From Euzebyales bacterium (GTDB taxonomy: Bacteria; Actinomycetota; Nitriliruptoria; Euzebyales; JAHELV01), in assembly GCA_036374135.1 (NCBI GenBank), contig DASUUK010000079.1, positions 1-37,159 on the forward strand: DNA of 37,159 nt, written 5' to 3'. The translations under genes were made by a program, and so were the position numbers. The notes under the pieces are model-generated. The model was not told the origin of the DNA and did no database searches. It was given only the letters and a program-made list of their open reading frames with translations. This document shows, in pieces, positions 4,612-18,010 of the stretch; position 1 is the stretch's first letter; the number at the start of each line of letters is the position of its first letter.

Positions 4612-5679
4612 TCATGGCAGGTCCACCTGGCTGTGGTCGCCGACCATCAGGCGGTGCGCCCGCGGGCGGCGGTCGCTACGGCCGACGCGCGCCTCCTTGC
4701 CGATCAGCGAGTCCTCCAGCCGTTCCACGCCGCGGATCTCGCTGTGGTCCAGGATCACCGAGTGTTCGATCGTGGAGTCGACGATCTCGCAGTCCGGAGC
4801 GATCGACGTGTAGGGCCCGACGAACGTCCGCACCAGTCGGGTGCCGCGGCCGATGATCGCCGGCCCCCGCACGAAGCTGTCGACCAGCTCGGCACCGGGT
4901 TCGATGATGACCCGACCCTGGGTGCCACTGCCGGCGTGCAGCAGTCCTTCGACGCTGGGGACCAGCGCGTCGAGCACGATGCGGTTGGCCTCCAACAGGT
5001 CCTCGAGCTTGCCGGTGTCCTTCCACCAGCCCGTCTCGACCACGTGGGCGTCCACCGGGTCGCCGTTGTCGATCAGCCACTGGATGGCATCGGTGATCTC
5101 CAGTTCGCCGCGCGGCGCCGGTGGGATCGCGCGTGCCGCGTCGATGATGCGCGACGAGAACAGGTACACGCCGACCAATGCGAGATCGGACGGCGGGTCG
5201 GCGGGCTTCTCGACCAGTCGCACCACACGGCCGTCCGCGTCGAGCACCGCGACGCCGAACTGCTGCGGCTGCTCGACCTTGGCGAGCATGACCTGCGCCG
5301 CGGACGATCCCGCGCGGAACTGCTCGACGAAGTCGACGATCCCACTGGTGAGCAGGTTGTCGCCCAGGTACATGACGAAGTCGTCGCCGTCGAGGAAGTC
5401 GGAGGCGACGAGCACTGCGTGGGCCAGCCCCAGCGGCTCGGGCTGATGGATGTAGGTGACGTTCAGTCCGTACCGCGACCCGTCACCGACGTGTGCACGG
5501 ATCTCGCGGTGGGTCTCGCCCACGACGACGCCGGCCTCCGTGATGCCCGCCTCGGCGATCGCCTCCAGCCCGAAGTCCAGGACGGGGCGGTTGCCGATGG
5601 GTACGAGTTGCTTGGCGCTGGTGTGCGTGATCGGGCGCAGTCGTGTGCCGGCACCACCCGACAACACAAGACCCTTCAT
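4612..5679 (-). CDS. rfbA: Glucose-1-phosphate thymidylyltransferase, long form
   Basis: A 355-residue nucleotidyltransferase that makes dTDP-glucose from glucose-1-phosphate and dTTP, the first step of the dTDP-sugar pathway. The signature GGAGTRLRP is at residues 8-16 with the conserved Lys23 (SAKQLVPI), and the metal-binding Asp is in MYLGDNLL. Residues from about 240 form a left-handed beta-helix tail (IIEPGAELVDSFV, AIIGRGTRLVRTFVGPYTSI), as in the StrD-type long enzymes rather than the ~290-residue RmlA. It is the first gene of the rmlA-wecE unit and is divergent from the glycosyltransferase at 5962 across a 282-bp gap. Also called rmlA. Confidence 0.92.
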   Translation of the reverse strand: MKGLVLSGGAGTRLRPITHTSAKQLVPIGNRPVLDFGLEAIAEAGITEAGVVVGETHREIRAHVGDGSRYGLNVTYIHQPEPLGLAHAVLVASDFLDGDDFVMYLGDNLLTSGIVDFVEQFRAGSSAAQVMLAKVEQPQQFGVAVLDADGRVVRLVEKPADPPSDLALVGVYLFSSRIIDAARAIPPAPRGELEITDAIQWLIDNGDPVDAHVVETGWWKDTGKLEDLLEANRIVLDALVPSVEGLLHAGSGTQGRVIIEPGAELVDSFVRGPAIIGRGTRLVRTFVGPYTSIAPDCEIVDSTIEHSVILDHSEIRGVERLEDSLIGKEARVGRSDRRPRAHRLMVGDHSQVDLP

Positions 5680-5961
5680 CTACCGGCTCCCACGCGCATC
5701 GCTCCACCCGTTGCGGGACGTCTGGACGTCGCCCGGTTCCCGTCCGGTCCGGCCGACCACCACCCGAGCGTAGTGGCCCGGTGCGCAGACACCAACCTGG
5801 GCTGGCCGCACGGCGGGTCAGGTGTCGCTGCACGGGATGTGCCGTAGACTCGCCACGACCGACGGGAGTGATCAGCGTACGCCGTCGGCTCGCGCACCGC
5901 CCAGGTGTCCCCCGCCGGATCGGCACCACCGCGCGGCAGGGCGCACCACCGACGAGGCCGC

Positions 5962-8433: not shown

Positions 8434-8466
8434 AGACGGCCCGGGTGAGATCCACCCGGGCCGTCT
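8434..8466 (+). terminator. Perfect 14-bp hairpin after azlD
   Basis: AGACGGCCCGGGTG (8434-8447) and its exact complement at 8453-8466 enclose a 5-nt loop. It starts 13 nt after the azlD stop. There is no long T tract, which is usual in high-GC actinobacteria. Confidence 0.8.
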
Positions 8467-12742: not shown

Positions 12743-13963
12743 ATGTCGCGCCGCGAGGTCGACGAGGCCACGGTCGGCCGGATCTTCCGCACCGAGTCCG
12801 GTCGGTCGGTGGCCACCCTGATCCGCGTCTTCGGCGACATCGACCTCGCCGAGGACGCGGTCCAGGACGCCTTCACGACCGCGCTTCGACGCTGGCCGAC
12901 CGACGGCCTGCCGCCGAACCCCGGCGCGTGGATCACGACGACCGCGCGCAACCGCGCCATCGACCGGCTGCGACGCGCGGCGCGCGGACGCGAACTGCTG
13001 GACGACGTCGCGCGACTGCCGTCCGGTCCGGAGGAGGTGGGCGCCGTGCACGACGACCGGCTACGCCTGGTGTTCATGTGCTGCCACCCCGCCCTGTCGA
13101 CCGCCGCACAGGTCGCGCTGACCGTGCGCCTGTTGGGTGGCCTGACGACGCCCGAGGTCGCCCGCGCGTTCCTGGTCGGCGAGTCGACGATGGCCCAGCG
13201 CCTGGTCCGCGCGAAGCGCAAGATCAAGGCGGCACGCATCCCCTACCGGGTGCCACGCGACGAGGAACTGCCCGATCGTCTGCCACCGGTGCTGGCCGTG
13301 GTCTATCTGATCTACACGACCGGAGCGGACCGGCTTGCGGACGACGCACGCGGCGACGACCTGCGGGCCGAGGCGGTGTGGCTCGCCCGCCTCCTCGGCC
13401 AGCTCATGCCCGACGAACCCGAGGTCGCAGGACTGCTGGCGCTGCTGCTGCTGACCGAGGCGCGCCGACCGGCGCTGTTCGCGGCCGACGGCTCGCTGGT
13501 CGTCCTGCGTGAGCAGAACCGTCGACGGTGGGACGGGGCGCTGATCTCCGAGGGTCACGAGCTCGTGCGCGCGTGTCTGCGACGGGACCGCCCCGGGCCG
13601 TATCAGCTGCAGGCTGCGATCAACGCCGTCCACACCGACGCCGCGACCTTCGCCGACACCGACTGGGCGCAGATCATCGCGCTCTACGACCAGCTGCTGG
13701 CGCACGTGCCCAGCCCCGTGGTCGCGCTCAACCGCGCGATCGCTGTCGGCGAGGTCGACGGCGCGGCAGCCGCGCTCGAGCTCGTCGATGCTCTCGATCT
13801 CGACGGGTATCAGCCCTTCCACGCCGCACGCGCCGACCTCCTCCGGCGGCTCGGGCGCCGAACCGAGGCGCGTGCGGCATACGAGGCGGCCGCCGAGGCG
13901 GCGCCCAACGACGCCGTCCGGAGCCACCTCGTCGACCAGGCGCGACTGGTCGTCGGTGGGTGA
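12743..13963 (+). CDS. ECF42-type RNA polymerase sigma factor with C-terminal extension
   Basis: A 406-residue sigma factor. Sigma-2 is at about residues 10-80 ([38 protein letters not shown]) and sigma-4 at about 110-165 ([32 protein letters not shown]). The remaining ~240 residues are the long helical, TPR-like extension typical of ECF42 ([53 protein letters not shown]). The extension replaces the usual anti-sigma factor, and none is encoded here. Directly preceded by its DGPF partner. Confidence 0.92.
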
Positions 13964-14063: not shown

Positions 14064-14852
14064 TCACGACGCCCCGGCGACCGATCGTGGCAGCGGGACC
14101 AGCCGATGATCACGGGTGAACAGCCGGCGGATGCCGACCAACGTGATCACGGCGGTCGACGTCGCGACGGCGCCGAGGATGATGTACATGAGCGCGGCCT
14201 GGACCATCACCGCGTCGATCGGATCGACGCCGGCCAGGATCAGTCCGGTCATCGCCCCGGGCAGGAACACGAGACCCACGGCCTTCGTCGTCTCGATCTG
14301 CGGACTCAGCGCGGTGCGCAGCACGGAGCGGGTGATCGGCCGCGCCGCGACGCTCGACGGCTGGCCGAGCGCCAGCCGGGCCTCCAGCTCCAGCCGCCCC
14401 TGCGCGACGGTCTCGACCGTGCGCTGGGCCGACACCACCTGTGCCTTCATCGCGTTGCCGATCACCATGCCGGCGATCGGCACCAGCGTGCGGGATTCGA
14501 GCGGGAACACGCCCATGCCGAAGACGAGGCCGAAGGCGACGACGGCGGTCACGGCGTTGGCCAGCATCGAGATGCCCAGCACCCCCGGCAGGGCCGGCGC
14601 CCGCGACCGGACGGTCGCACCGGCGAACGCCACGATGCCGAGCACCCACACCCAGGACCACCACAGCGGCGCGTCTGGCGCGAGCACCAGCGCCAGGGCG
14701 GAGCCGACGGCGAGCAGCTGCCCCGCCGCACGGACGGTGGCGATGGCGATGTCGCGCTCCAGACCGAGACGACGCCAGACGGAGACGCCGATCGCGACGA
14801 CCACCAGCAGCGTCGACGCGATGAGACCGACCCACGAGACGTCCTGATCCAT
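14064..14852 (-). CDS. fetB: FetB/UPF0014-type ABC transporter permease
   Basis: A 262-residue permease with about seven hydrophobic segments, matching the YbbM/FetB family: ATVRAAGQLLAVGSALALVL, then GMVIGNAMKAQVVSAQRT, and FLPGAMTGLILAGVDPIDAV near the end. With FetA it forms an exporter linked to iron homeostasis and peroxide resistance in E. coli. The start lies 1 nt after the fetA stop, so translation is coupled. It converges on the ECF42 gene across a 100-bp gap. Confidence 0.85.
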   Translation of the reverse strand: MDQDVSWVGLIASTLLVVVAIGVSVWRRLGLERDIAIATVRAAGQLLAVGSALALVLAPDAPLWWSWVWVLGIVAFAGATVRSRAPALPGVLGISMLANAVTAVVAFGLVFGMGVFPLESRTLVPIAGMVIGNAMKAQVVSAQRTVETVAQGRLELEARLALGQPSSVAARPITRSVLRTALSPQIETTKAVGLVFLPGAMTGLILAGVDPIDAVMVQAALMYIILGAVATSTAVITLVGIRRLFTRDHRLVPLPRSVAGAS

Positions 14853-14853
14853 C

Positions 14854-15567
14854 TCAGCCCTCCTCGACCGTGTCGAGCCGTGCCTCGACGTCTGCCGGAG
14901 CTCCTGTCGCGACGACCCGCCCGTGGTCGAGCGCGAGCACCCAGTCGGCCAGTCGGCGTGACTGGGCGGGGTCGTGGGTGACCCACAGCACGGGGACGCC
15001 GTGGTCGACGAGCGCTCGGATCATGCGTTCGAGCGTGCGGGCGGTGCCCTGGTCCAGCGACGACGTCGGCTCATCCGCCAGCAGCACCTCGGGCCCGGTC
15101 ACCAGCGTGCGCGCAAGGCAGGCCCGTTGCGCCTCGCCTCCTGACAGCGTGTCGGCGTCGCGGTCGAGGAACGTGCGATCGAGCTCGGCGCGCGCCAGCG
15201 CGTCGATCCACCGGTCCTCGGTGGCGTCGGGCGCCGCGACCACGAGGTTGTCGCGCACCGTGCCCGCGAACAGCGTGGGTGCCTGGAACACCATGCCGAC
15301 CCGCCGGCGCGTGGCGAGCACGTCCAGGTCGGCGAGGTCGGTGCCCCGCAGCAGCACCCGGCCGCGCGACGGCACCGCCAGGCGGTTGCACAACCGGAGC
15401 AGCGTCGACTTGCCGCCGCCGGAGGGGCCGACGATCGTCGTCAGCGCCCCGTCGGGGATCTCGGCGTCGACGCCGCGCAGGACGTCATGCCCACCCAGCT
15501 CGACGTGCACGTCTTCGAACGTGAACAGCGGGGTACCCGCGGCCAGCGCGTGGTCCCGGTCCACCAT
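14854..15567 (-). CDS. fetA: FetA-type ABC transporter ATP-binding protein
   Basis: A 237-residue ATPase. Walker A is GPSGGGKST (residues 47-55), followed by a Q-loop (MVFQAPTLF), the LSGGEAQRACLAR signature, Walker B LLADEPTSSLD and the switch His in WVTHD. Size and pairing with the UPF0014 permease identify it as the FetA/YbbL partner; ABC domains alone would not reveal substrate. The ATG has GGAGGG about 9 nt upstream. It is divergent from the LAATG microprotein gene across a 352-bp region. Confidence 0.87.
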   Translation of the reverse strand: MVDRDHALAAGTPLFTFEDVHVELGGHDVLRGVDAEIPDGALTTIVGPSGGGKSTLLRLCNRLAVPSRGRVLLRGTDLADLDVLATRRRVGMVFQAPTLFAGTVRDNLVVAAPDATEDRWIDALARAELDRTFLDRDADTLSGGEAQRACLARTLVTGPEVLLADEPTSSLDQGTARTLERMIRALVDHGVPVLWVTHDPAQSRRLADWVLALDHGRVVATGAPADVEARLDTVEEG

Positions 15568-15919
15568 CGGCGACTGCCCTCCGCCACTCGACGATCGATC
15601 GGGGCACCCCGATGGTAGTGGATCGTTCGGGGATCTCGGCGGTTACCCCGCCCCGCCTCACACTGCATGTCCGTCGCCGGACCTGTGAGCGGCGATGGTT
15701 CAAATATAGGGAAATCCATCGAAACGTATCATGAAAGGGACTTGTGCTGTACCTCAGAGAGATTTCCGTAACCATGGGTTAAGGGGTGGAGCGGGGGGGT
15801 ACCAGAGTGCCGGCCAACGGATCTGGCAGTCGGAGAGCGCGACATGCAGCACAGCAGATCGACCTGTCAGACGCGGCCGACCGCTCCGCGGCACACCTGA
15901 TCAGCCTGAGGGGGCACCG
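15568..15919. promoter_or_regulatory. 352-bp divergent region with an AT-rich island
   Basis: No gene is visible. Around 15696-15780 the base composition drops sharply (for example TTCAAATATAGGGAAAT at 15699 and CGAAACGTATCATGAAAGG at 15720) in an otherwise 70% G+C window, and a G-rich run (GGGGTGGAGCGGGGGGG) follows at 15783. The segment between the island and the ATG at 15920 is about 140 nt, long enough for a structured leader. A promoter for the microprotein gene within the island is likely, but I find no convincing -35/-10 pair. Confidence 0.45.
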
Positions 15920-16084
15920 ATGTACAACGACATTCCGACACCAACCATCATCGAAGCGGGCGCCGGTGGCGCCGCGCTGGCAGCCACCGGCGCGTTGGAC
16001 GTCCCACTGCTGCTGATGGTCATCATCAGCCTGGCCGCCACCGGCGCCGTGATGGTGGGACGGCGCGCCTTCGCACGCCGCTGA
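15920..16084 (+). CDS. 54-residue membrane microprotein with LAATG sortase-like tail
   Basis: The peptide starts MYNDIPTPTIIEAG and has no signal peptide. LAATG at residues 20-24 is followed by a hydrophobic stretch and a basic end (RRAFARR), the order of a sortase sorting signal. LAATG recurs at 38-42 inside the hydrophobic stretch. The N-terminus carries only acidic charges (D4, E12) and the C-terminus only basic ones, so an N-out/C-in topology is likely. ATG at 15920 has GAGGGGG about 6 nt upstream, although the frame opens at 15731. A perfect hairpin begins 3 nt after the stop. Neighbours are a polysaccharide synthase and a class F sortase. I know no named family; a role as sortase substrate is inference. 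Confidence 0.65.
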   Translation: MYNDIPTPTIIEAGAGGAALAATGALDVPLLLMVIISLAATGAVMVGRRAFARR

Positions 16085-16087
16085 TGA

Positions 16088-16114
16088 CGTGTGGGCGCGC
16101 AGAGCGCCCACACG
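16088..16114 (+). terminator. Perfect 11-bp hairpin after the microprotein gene
   Basis: CGTGTGGGCGC (16088-16098) pairs exactly with 16104-16114 around the loop GCAGA. It starts 3 nt after the stop codon, which supports the microprotein as a separate transcription unit. Confidence 0.75.
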
Positions 16115-16294: not shown

Positions 16295-18010
16295 GTGACG
16301 GCATGGGCGTTGGCGCTCATCGCCGCGCCCGTGCTCGCCTTCCCGATCGGGCTCATGCTCGCCTTCCGGGCAACTGACGGCGGTATCGGCCGTCCGACCA
16401 CGCGGCGCGTCCCTTGCGTCGTCCGTTCCATGAGGGCGCAGCGGGGGACCCGCAGCCGACGCGACCGCTCACGCCGTCTCCGGCGTGGCATCTTCGCGGC
16501 TGCGCATGACATCCCCTGGCCTGGCCGGGAGCGTCACACGCTGGTCCCCGGGCGCACCCCGGAGCAGCGCAACCCCGACGGCGCGTCAGAACCCGCACGT
16601 CGCGCCAAGCGCGAGCCGCGGGACGCGGTCGTCGACCCGCTCGTCGTTGCCGATGCCCGCGCGGTCGCCACCGCGGGCGCCGTCACCGCCACCGGCACTG
16701 TCACCACCACCGGCACTGTGACCGACACCGGTCCTGTCGCCGAGCGGCCCTCCCAGCGCGGCGACGGCCGCACCCAGCGCGACCTCGCGGCGCTCGTCGT
16801 GCTGGGCGTGTGTGCGATCGGGGCGTCGGCGGCCCTGATGTTCCCCCGCCACTCCGTCCATCCGCTGGCGACCGCCGCGGCCGTGTGGGTGCTGATCCGG
16901 CTCGCGATCATGTGGATCTACAAGCCCACGCGACGGCCGGTGCCGCCCGGGTTCGCCCGCAGCGTACGCGCTGCCGCGCTCGTGCCGGCCTACAACGAGG
17001 ATCCCGCTTCCGTCCTCGCGACGCTGCGGTCGCTCGAGAGCCAGACGCGGGCGCCCGATCGCGTGTTCTTCATCGACGATGGCTCGAAGGACCGGTCGGC
17101 GGTGGACGCCGCCCGCGACCACGCGAGGCAGAGCAGTCTCGACATCCAGGTGATCGCGCTCACCGAGAACCGCGGCAAGCGCTTCGCGCAGGACGCGGCG
17201 TGGGCCAGGACGAGACCGGGTGAGTTCGACGTCTGGTTGTTCATCGACTCCGACACCACCCTGGCGGACGACGCCATCGAGCGGATGCTCGAGACGTTCG
17301 CCGACGAACGGATCGACGCCGCGACGTCACTGATCCTGCCGCGCAACCGCAACAGCGTGTTCGCTCGTCTCCAGGAGACGGAGTACGCCAACGGGATCCT
17401 GTTCGAGCGGGCGCTGGCCGGCGTGCTGGGCGCCGTTCCGGTGATGTCAGGCGGATTCTGTGCCGTCCGCGACGCCGTGGTCTTCTGGAACCGTCGTCGC
17501 TATCTGGAGGGCTACTGGGGCCAGCACATCAGCGACGACCGGCACCTTGCGATCCTCGCGGGAGCGACGGGTCGGGTGGTGACCCAGACGGCCGCGCGCT
17601 CCTACACCGAGGCACCGACCCACTGGCGCCCATACCTCAAACAGCGCATCCGCTGGCAGCGTGGCGCCTGGATCGGCCAGTTCTGGACCATCGCCCACCT
17701 CCCGGCCAACCGATGGATGTGGTGGGTGGTCGCGGGTCAGATCGCGGTGTTCCCCGCAGCGCTCACCCTGATCGTCATCGCGCTCGCGGTGGTGCCGTTG
17801 TCGAAGGTGGTCGCGCTCTGGGCCTACGTCGCCGTGCTCGTCCTCGCCCGTTCGCTGCGCTACCTCGCCGAGCCCCATCCGCGACCGTTCGTGCAGTACG
17901 CGGCGTGGCTGACGACGCCCTTCCAGCAGTTGGTCGGACTGTTCGTGCTGACACCGCTCAAGGTCTACGCGCTGGCGACGTGCCGTCGGGGCAGTTGGGG
18001 AACGCGCTGA
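16295..18010 (+). CDS. Processive family 2 glycosyltransferase (polysaccharide synthase)
   Basis: A 571-residue membrane synthase of the hyaluronan/PgaC/cellulose-synthase type. All processive GT2 signatures are present: VPAYNED, DDGS (261-264), DSD (318-320), the acceptor-base SDDR (413-416) and QRIRW (450-454). One helix lies near the N-terminus, two before the catalytic domain (about 168-210) and three or four after it (about 475-560), suiting synthesis coupled to export. Residues 25-165 are a basic, low-complexity linker containing three 6-residue V-T-x-T-G-x repeats. The GTG start overlaps the stop of an 8-codon upstream frame. It ends 3 bp from the convergent sortase stop. The polymer is unknown. 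Confidence 0.85.
   Translation: MTAWALALIAAPVLAFPIGLMLAFRATDGGIGRPTTRRVPCVVRSMRAQRGTRSRRDRSRRLRRGIFAAAHDIPWPGRERHTLVPGRTPEQRNPDGASEPARRAKREPRDAVVDPLVVADARAVATAGAVTATGTVTTTGTVTDTGPVAERPSQRGDGRTQRDLAALVVLGVCAIGASAALMFPRHSVHPLATAAAVWVLIRLAIMWIYKPTRRPVPPGFARSVRAAALVPAYNEDPASVLATLRSLESQTRAPDRVFFIDDGSKDRSAVDAARDHARQSSLDIQVIALTENRGKRFAQDAAWARTRPGEFDVWLFIDSDTTLADDAIERMLETFADERIDAATSLILPRNRNSVFARLQETEYANGILFERALAGVLGAVPVMSGGFCAVRDAVVFWNRRRYLEGYWGQHISDDRHLAILAGATGRVVTQTAARSYTEAPTHWRPYLKQRIRWQRGAWIGQFWTIAHLPANRWMWWVVAGQIAVFPAALTLIVIALAVVPLSKVVALWAYVAVLVLARSLRYLAEPHPRPFVQYAAWLTTPFQQLVGLFVLTPLKVYALATCRRGSWGTR
16682..16735 (+). repeat. Three tandem 18-bp units inside the synthase gene
   Basis: Three in-frame copies of an 18-bp unit encode VTATGT, VTTTGT and VTDTGP. 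The first two units differ at one base (GCC against ACC in the third codon). They lie in the disordered linker before the catalytic domain, so copy number can probably vary without loss of frame. Confidence 0.8.

Follow-up and report, generated by a model that had tools for sequence, protein, structure and literature searches.

A group of tiny membrane peptides with putative sortase tags encoded beside hyaluronan-synthase-like GT2 genes

We analysed a stretch of 37,159 nucleotides from a Euzebyales bacterium (in the following, the window) and found in it a gene for a 54-residue peptide. Judged by sequence and gene order, this peptide is one of a group of tiny membrane peptides, so far undescribed and for the most part sortase-tagged, which in many actinobacteria are encoded beside genes of hyaluronan-synthase-like GT2 enzymes. 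On balance, we favour the view that the reading frame encodes a minimal sortase substrate which works with the neighbouring GT2 and anchors its polysaccharide or helps with it. That the peptide is a sortase substrate is supported by its sequence layout and by its relatives, and we infer a role in glycan synthesis. A first-pass annotation, made from the letters alone, had proposed the sortase substrate; its observation is confirmed, and its interpretation is partly supported, being largely right with the corrections given below.

The gene and the peptide

The reading frame translates to MYNDIPTPTIIEAGAGGAALAATGALDVPLLLMVIISLAATGAVMVGRRAFARR (54 residues), for which Pfam gives no match. Since GC3 is 0.83 within it and 0.56 where the frame stays open ahead of the ATG, the start listed in Table 1 was preferred, and the longer frame of 117 aa was dropped as a gene. 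The good ribosome site and the perfect hairpin pointed out in the first-pass annotation are both there. The stretch with the hairpin folds at -24.5 kcal/mol, and the whole window has only one other perfect stem of at least 10 bp (loop 3-8); Markov shuffles (n = 20) gave a mean of about 0.3 perfect stems with at least 11 bp. It is possible that the hairpin is a terminator or an attenuator ahead of the GT2 gene. The other long perfect hairpin of the window is found at 8434-8466 and has a 14-bp stem and a 5-nt loop.

Table 1. Position of the peptide gene, its signals and its neighbours in the window
Feature	Position	Strand	Evidence or remark
Shine-Dalgarno-like GAGGGGG	15908..15914	+	5 nt upstream of ATG, from sequence
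ORF of the 54-aa protein, little more than a putative sorting signal	15920..16084, stop included	+	translation, GC3, homologues adjoining GT2 genes
IPTPTIIEAGAGGAA, residues 5-19, class-F-type sorting motif	15932..15976	+	PSSM, HMM; predicted cut A13/G14
LAATG, residues 20-24, class-E-type sorting motif	15977..15991	+	aligned L[AP]xTG in relatives; alternative cut T23/G24
Hydrophobic helix, residues 28-47	16001..16060	+	sequence; mean hydropathy 2.52 over best 16 residues
Positively charged tail RRAFARR	16061..16081	+	sequence
Perfect 11-bp hairpin, 5-nt loop, no T-run	16088..16114	+	begins 3 nt past the stop of the 54-aa ORF
Membrane processive GT2, hyaluronan-synthase/NodC-like, 571 aa	16295..18010	+	PF00535 2e-21
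Class F sortase, 261 aa	18014..18799	-	NF033748 172.1 bits vs cut-off 166; PF04203 4.1e-22

The layout first described for the peptide, that is, 19 residues, LAATG, a hydrophobic stretch and RRAFARR, is borne out by the translation. Ahead of the motif we could see neither a basic n-region nor a hydrophobic h-region of a signal peptide. Two negative charges (D4 and E12, -2) precede the helix and four Arg (+4) follow it, which fits an orientation with the N-terminus outside; both points agree with the earlier reading. Export would need the single helix to act as an N-out anchor. A pentapeptide-type motif, a hydrophobic stretch with a positive tail behind it, and sortases in the same genome (class E and class F, both above their cut-offs) are what we looked for in a sortase substrate, and all are present. 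The second LAATG that had been noticed within the helix does exist (residues 38-42); it is not common to the relatives, and we dropped it as a functional site.

The best NCBIfam match of the neighbouring GT2 is NodC (3.8e-36), although its 124.9 bits stay below the curated cut-off of 550 of this model (TIGR04242). It also matches hyaluronan synthase 1 (PDB 8smm, 1.4e-06), and it carries QRIRWQRG and a C-terminal WGTR. Its N-terminal extension of about 200 residues (16295-16903) is Arg-rich, has TG/TV repeats (..AGAVTATGTVTTTGTVTDTG..) and is absent from the aligned GT2 relatives. Elsewhere in the window there are an ECF-type sigma factor with a DUF6596/TPR C-terminal part (12743-13963, + strand) and a pair of a UPF0014/FetB-like permease and an ABC ATPase, an iron-efflux-type ABC transporter (14064-15567, - strand).

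Relatives of the peptide adjoin GT2 genes

Using profile and neighbourhood searches, we found about 17 further proteins of 50-80 residues with a single helix, no signal peptide and L[AP]xTG, each of them adjoining a membrane processive GT2. The window peptide has the same length range, the single helix, the motif and the GT2 neighbour. Among the hosts are Acidimicrobiia-like genomes, Thermoleophilia, Streptomyces, Embleya, Cellulomonas and Catellatospora. In summary, about 18 copies of the module have L[AP]xTG (the window included, and the near-identical G140 and G169 taken as one) and five do not. The first-pass annotation had made its case depend on homologues that retain LAxTG, and relatives with L[AP]xTG do exist.

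Searching with the peptide alone gave nothing convincing in 61 related genomes, mostly weak matches; in three genomes of the same genus neither the peptide nor the GT2 was found. The NCBIfam model NF058583 had no match above its cut-off in 61 and 296 genomes. In G005, a genome of the same taxonomic order, a weaker match to this model pointed to an evident relative, MYQTIGAPAAAGIGALAYTGSDLLWLAVGAFALIAAGSAVLRIIPRRVQA, the ATG of which lies 2 nt past the stop of a GT2 gene. A degenerate DNA pattern (ATGTAY..LAxTG) gave counts like those of its backward control, yet the members in G005 and G030 were included.

Using the G005 GT2 as a query against 326 genomes of the phylum, we obtained 12 loci. 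A small one-helix protein that starts with MYN, MYG, MYQ or MANY lies directly downstream of the GT2 in nine of them; L[AP]xTG is present in eight of these nine (LAYTG, LAFTG, LPITG, LPETG, LPDTG, LPETG twice, in near-identical genomes, and LAATG), and the remaining one has LTYAG. The GT2 of G005 and that of the window are not orthologues (29% over 110 residues). A search of relatives with the window GT2 at E <= 1e-60 returned no match but itself, and among 326 genomes of the phylum it has two relatives. In G039, a genome of the same class, a GTG-started MYDDVLGIAGAGTAAGAAVLATTG.. precedes the GT2 relative, and its stop overlaps a GTG start of the GT2.

An alignment of three GT2 sequences, scanned against GTDB contigs, gave 80 loci. 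Small one-helix proteins directly upstream of the GT2 are found in S. himalayensis (LARTG), S. hilarionis and S. ochraceiscleroticus (LAQTG), Cellulomonas (LAATG), Catellatospora (LPVTG), G369 (LAATG) and a Thermoleophilia MAG (MYDDVLGITAAGG...LPFTG). After a second GT2 family they are found in G005 (LAYTG), G068 (LAFTG), G227 (LPITG and LAATG), G160, G150 and G169 (LPETG, LPDTG and LPETG, respectively), G030 (LAHTG) and Embleya (AGAGGALAATGA). The last comes from a plasmid collection, in which the only GT2 relative, that of Embleya, lacks usable annotation and has the module, with MYHASTGAAAAGAGGALAATGANV... after its GT2; AGAGGALAATGA nearly equals AGAGGAALAATGA of the window. On the other hand, five small proteins in the same place are without L[AP]xTG: G188 (LTYAG), Saccharibacteria L174, Propionibacteriaceae L175, Klugiella L179 and Microbacteriaceae L210. 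The motif is therefore not essential everywhere. When the relatives are aligned, the columns M, L and G are invariant and Y, T and R nearly so, and little else is common.

The link to the GT2 genes can be quantified. We applied a strict filter to both strands of 657 kb around the 80 GT2 relatives, and all five ORFs that passed were on the GT2 strand and directly upstream of the GT2; the many proteobacterial and other loci yielded no such ORF and served as a negative control. Furthermore, a profile of twelve small proteins, blind to the GT2, was run against 396 genomes: G030 (LAHTG) and G369 (LAATG) were among the best new short-frame matches, and both proved to adjoin a GT2.

A polysaccharide deacetylase gene lies 3' of the pair of GT2 and small LAxTG protein in G030 (L268:1677-2492, PF01522), and another, recognised by its motifs, 3' of the small gene in Embleya (L286:3843-4571). 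Both would fit an amino-sugar polymer.

Sortases near the modules

The sortase of the window is above the NF033748 cut-off and has the LxTC catalytic motif (LVTCGG), which places it in class F. Its gene begins 1.9 kb downstream of the 54-aa ORF, in convergent orientation and with the GT2 in between, in agreement with the 2 kb noted before. Its own genome (G000) has six sortase matches, among them a class E sortase on contig 35 (164.1 bits, cut-off 160). The closest paralogue, on contig 45, is 63% identical. This paralogue adjoins its own VDTGGGG-tagged substrate gene (L082:6269-6922 and 5195-5782 for the pair, - strand), with counterparts in G001 and G002.

Three of the about 18 modules have an adjoining sortase: the window, the Thermoleophilia contig and G227. 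On the Thermoleophilia contig (L186) the small LPFTG protein, the GT2 and the sortase follow one another on one strand, the sortase 16 nt past the GT2; in G227 one strand carries, in this order, the GT2, a 57-aa LPITG protein and a class E sortase, with short gaps (9504/9523 and 9696/9754 in L159). By a rough estimate (1-13 sortases per 3-10 Mb genome, that is, about 0.3-0.9% per locus) fewer than 0.1 such cases would be expected by chance. Around most modules the stretch read holds no sortase gene, and so conservation without a sortase nearby, which the first-pass annotation had named as speaking against its reading, is found in part. Sortases act in trans, and all ten genomes that we checked encode at least one; since sortases are common in the phylum, this is weak evidence alone. 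The conserved partner, that is, the gene that travels with the peptide, is the GT2 and not the sortase. The pairing of LAATG with the nearby sortase is not supported either: LAxTG is a known class E signal (PMC5148588), the enzyme 2 kb away is of class F, and the class E enzyme is on another contig.

A class-F-type motif in the peptide

The top match of a single-sequence search with the peptide (G007, E 0.002) was identified as a class F substrate tail, and this revealed a second motif in the peptide. Residues 5-19, IPTPTIIEAGAGGAA, fit the tag P-x-P-T-R-[VI]-[DE]-[TA]-G-x-G-G of proteins whose genes adjoin class F sortases. Examples of such tags in the same class are IPVPTRVDTGGGGAG, VPVPERVDTGGGGTG (own genome, contig 45), VPRPNRVEAGAGGAA and IRTPTRVDTGAGGTE, with a helix and basic residues behind them. 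In a profile search of 66 genomes, 18 of 32 class F-tagged tails had a class F sortase at a distance of 1.5 kb or less. The candidate tag is borne by secreted proteins encoded beside class F sortases at L033, L034, L035, L036, L038, L041, L082 and other loci.

To score the motif, we used a PSSM of 14 columns built from 13 tails which were found without the window peptide and most of which lie beside class F sortases. With 27.3 bits, IPTPTIIEAGAGGAA is within the training range (24.9-37.1); among 2.41 million background 14-mers only class F tails scored as high, and none of 100,000 shuffles reached this score. A profile HMM gives the window peptide 19.6 bits, a value that includes a large composition bias of 15.4 bits, and eight other small GT2-linked proteins 2.2 bits or less; in a genome-wide search with the class F tail profile at E <= 0.001 the window peptide was not returned. 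Since the GT2-linked relatives also have AGAGG, PTPTIIE is the discriminating part. The P1 residue in IIEAG is Ala and not Thr; VEAG is also found adjoining class F sortases. The motif was seen only in that GT2-linked peptide which adjoins a class F sortase.

We consider it likely that the class-F-type motif is a real second signal. The peptide thus seems to be addressed twice, with the class F signal first and the class E signal second. Because LAATG suits class E, the nearby sortase is of class F and IPTPTIIEAGAGGAA matches the class F tag, the local enzyme may cut at A13/G14 (in PTPTIIEAGAGGAA) rather than at T23/G24 (in ALAATGALD). The first-pass annotation was right to read a sorting signal, as L[AP]xTG is retained in relatives, and it missed the motif that fits the nearby enzyme better.

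Possible function and alternative explanations

The proposed sequence of events is as follows. The peptide would insert by its single helix as a reverse signal-anchor, with the N-terminus out and held by the -2/+4 charges. A sortase would then cut within the exposed tail; this could be the class F enzyme nearby, with ..IIEA/G as its site, or the class E enzyme encoded elsewhere in the genome, with LAAT/G as its site, and the freed N-terminal peptide of 13 or 23 residues would be linked to peptidoglycan. The GT2, if it acts like its hyaluronan-synthase/NodC-like family, would make and extrude a polysaccharide. In the last and weakest step, the wall-linked peptide, typically with an MY(G/N/D) start, might anchor, prime or organise the polymer at the wall. 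The gene order suggests that a surface polysaccharide is made or fixed with the help of the anchored peptide. In a more specific version, which we regard as quite unlikely, the polymer of the GT2 would be primed by, or attached to, the exposed N-terminal peptide, in which a Tyr recurs at residue 2 (2-4). Transfer by the sortase would fix this polymer to peptidoglycan, and with the tandem class F and class E signals in this genome either enzyme could set the peptide.

The main rival to a sortase substrate is an accessory subunit of the GT2 that needs no sortase: the small helix would bind the synthase and help its assembly, folding or export, and the TG motif would be a by-product of helix packing by small residues or be used in some lineages only. 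BcsF and PgaD are such helper subunits of cellulose and PNAG synthases. We see this as a possible but rather unlikely explanation. It would account for the tight coupling to the GT2 (the stop/start overlap in G039, the 2-nt offset in G005), for the absence of a sortase near most modules and, which is its best evidence, for the small helical proteins that occupy this place but lack L[AP]xTG. It does not explain why about 18 proteins with little else in common retain L[AP]xTG, why a class F motif is present where a class F sortase adjoins, or why in two cases from other phyletic groups a sortase gene follows immediately downstream on the same strand.

Potentially, the peptide could also be a substrate of the class F sortase only, left by a duplicated sortase-substrate pair in which the substrate has shrunk to its sorting signal, with the GT2 neighbourhood and LAATG being incidental. 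The match of IPTPTIIEAGAGGAA to the tags of proteins beside the closest sortases, the 63% identity to the contig 45 copy with its VDTGGGG substrate, and the lack of any other gene with a class F tag in the window speak for it. We nevertheless find it improbable, as the MY[ND]D start, the AGAGGAALAATGA segment and the GT2 neighbourhood are common to GT2-linked relatives (Embleya AGAGGALAATGA, G039 MYDDV). Least probable is a spurious or decaying reading frame: it is short and absent in three genomes of the same genus, but GC3, the ribosome site, the position and the homologues in the same gene order all argue against this. The 54-aa ORF is a real gene, as had been claimed, its profile homologues and its position adjoining GT2 genes being beyond chance.

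A typical sortase substrate is a surface protein of hundreds of residues, whereas here the sorting signal makes up nearly all of the protein and the partner gene codes for a polysaccharide synthase. Should this link hold, sortases would be tied to glycan synthesis of the hyaluronan-synthase/NodC type, with a route for fixing a synthase-type polymer to the wall. What class F sortases do physiologically is, according to PMC13251363, not known, and the candidate class F tag gives these enzymes testable substrates. In the open-licence literature on sortases and GT2, sortases and polysaccharides, and sortases and small proteins, we did not find the GT2 pairing, the class F tag or the tandem signals described.

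Comparison with known systems

Sorting signals as such and, in the form of an NCBIfam model, tiny LAXTG proteins are well known. This model, NF058583 (LAXTG_small_WW, 54 positions), resembles the window peptide in size and in LAxTG followed by a helix and a charged tail. The window peptide scores 12.1 bits with it, below the cut-off of 65, and the G005 relative 29.8 bits over nearly the whole model length; a link to GT2 cannot be read from the model name. To a second model, NF058571 (GVDTG_CTERM), residues 12-49 align at positions 7-44 of 44 with 14.0 bits, below the cut-off of 29; the tails adjacent to class F sortases also match it, themselves below the cut-off (13-24 bits). The GT2 of the window is alike in sequence to the hyaluronan synthase/NodC type, yet below the NodC cut-off.

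The class E LAXTG substrates, for example the long chaplins of Streptomyces (PMC5148588), have the same LAxTG, hydrophobic stretch and positive tail. Unlike them, the window peptide lacks both a cleavable signal peptide and an extracellular domain, and only about 20 residues precede its motif. The XrtG-associated GT2 systems (TIGR03111) differ in that their enzyme is of the exosortase type, and the window GT2 has 38 bits with that model against a cut-off of 364; they offer an analogy in that there, too, a GT2 is encoded together with a protein-sorting enzyme.
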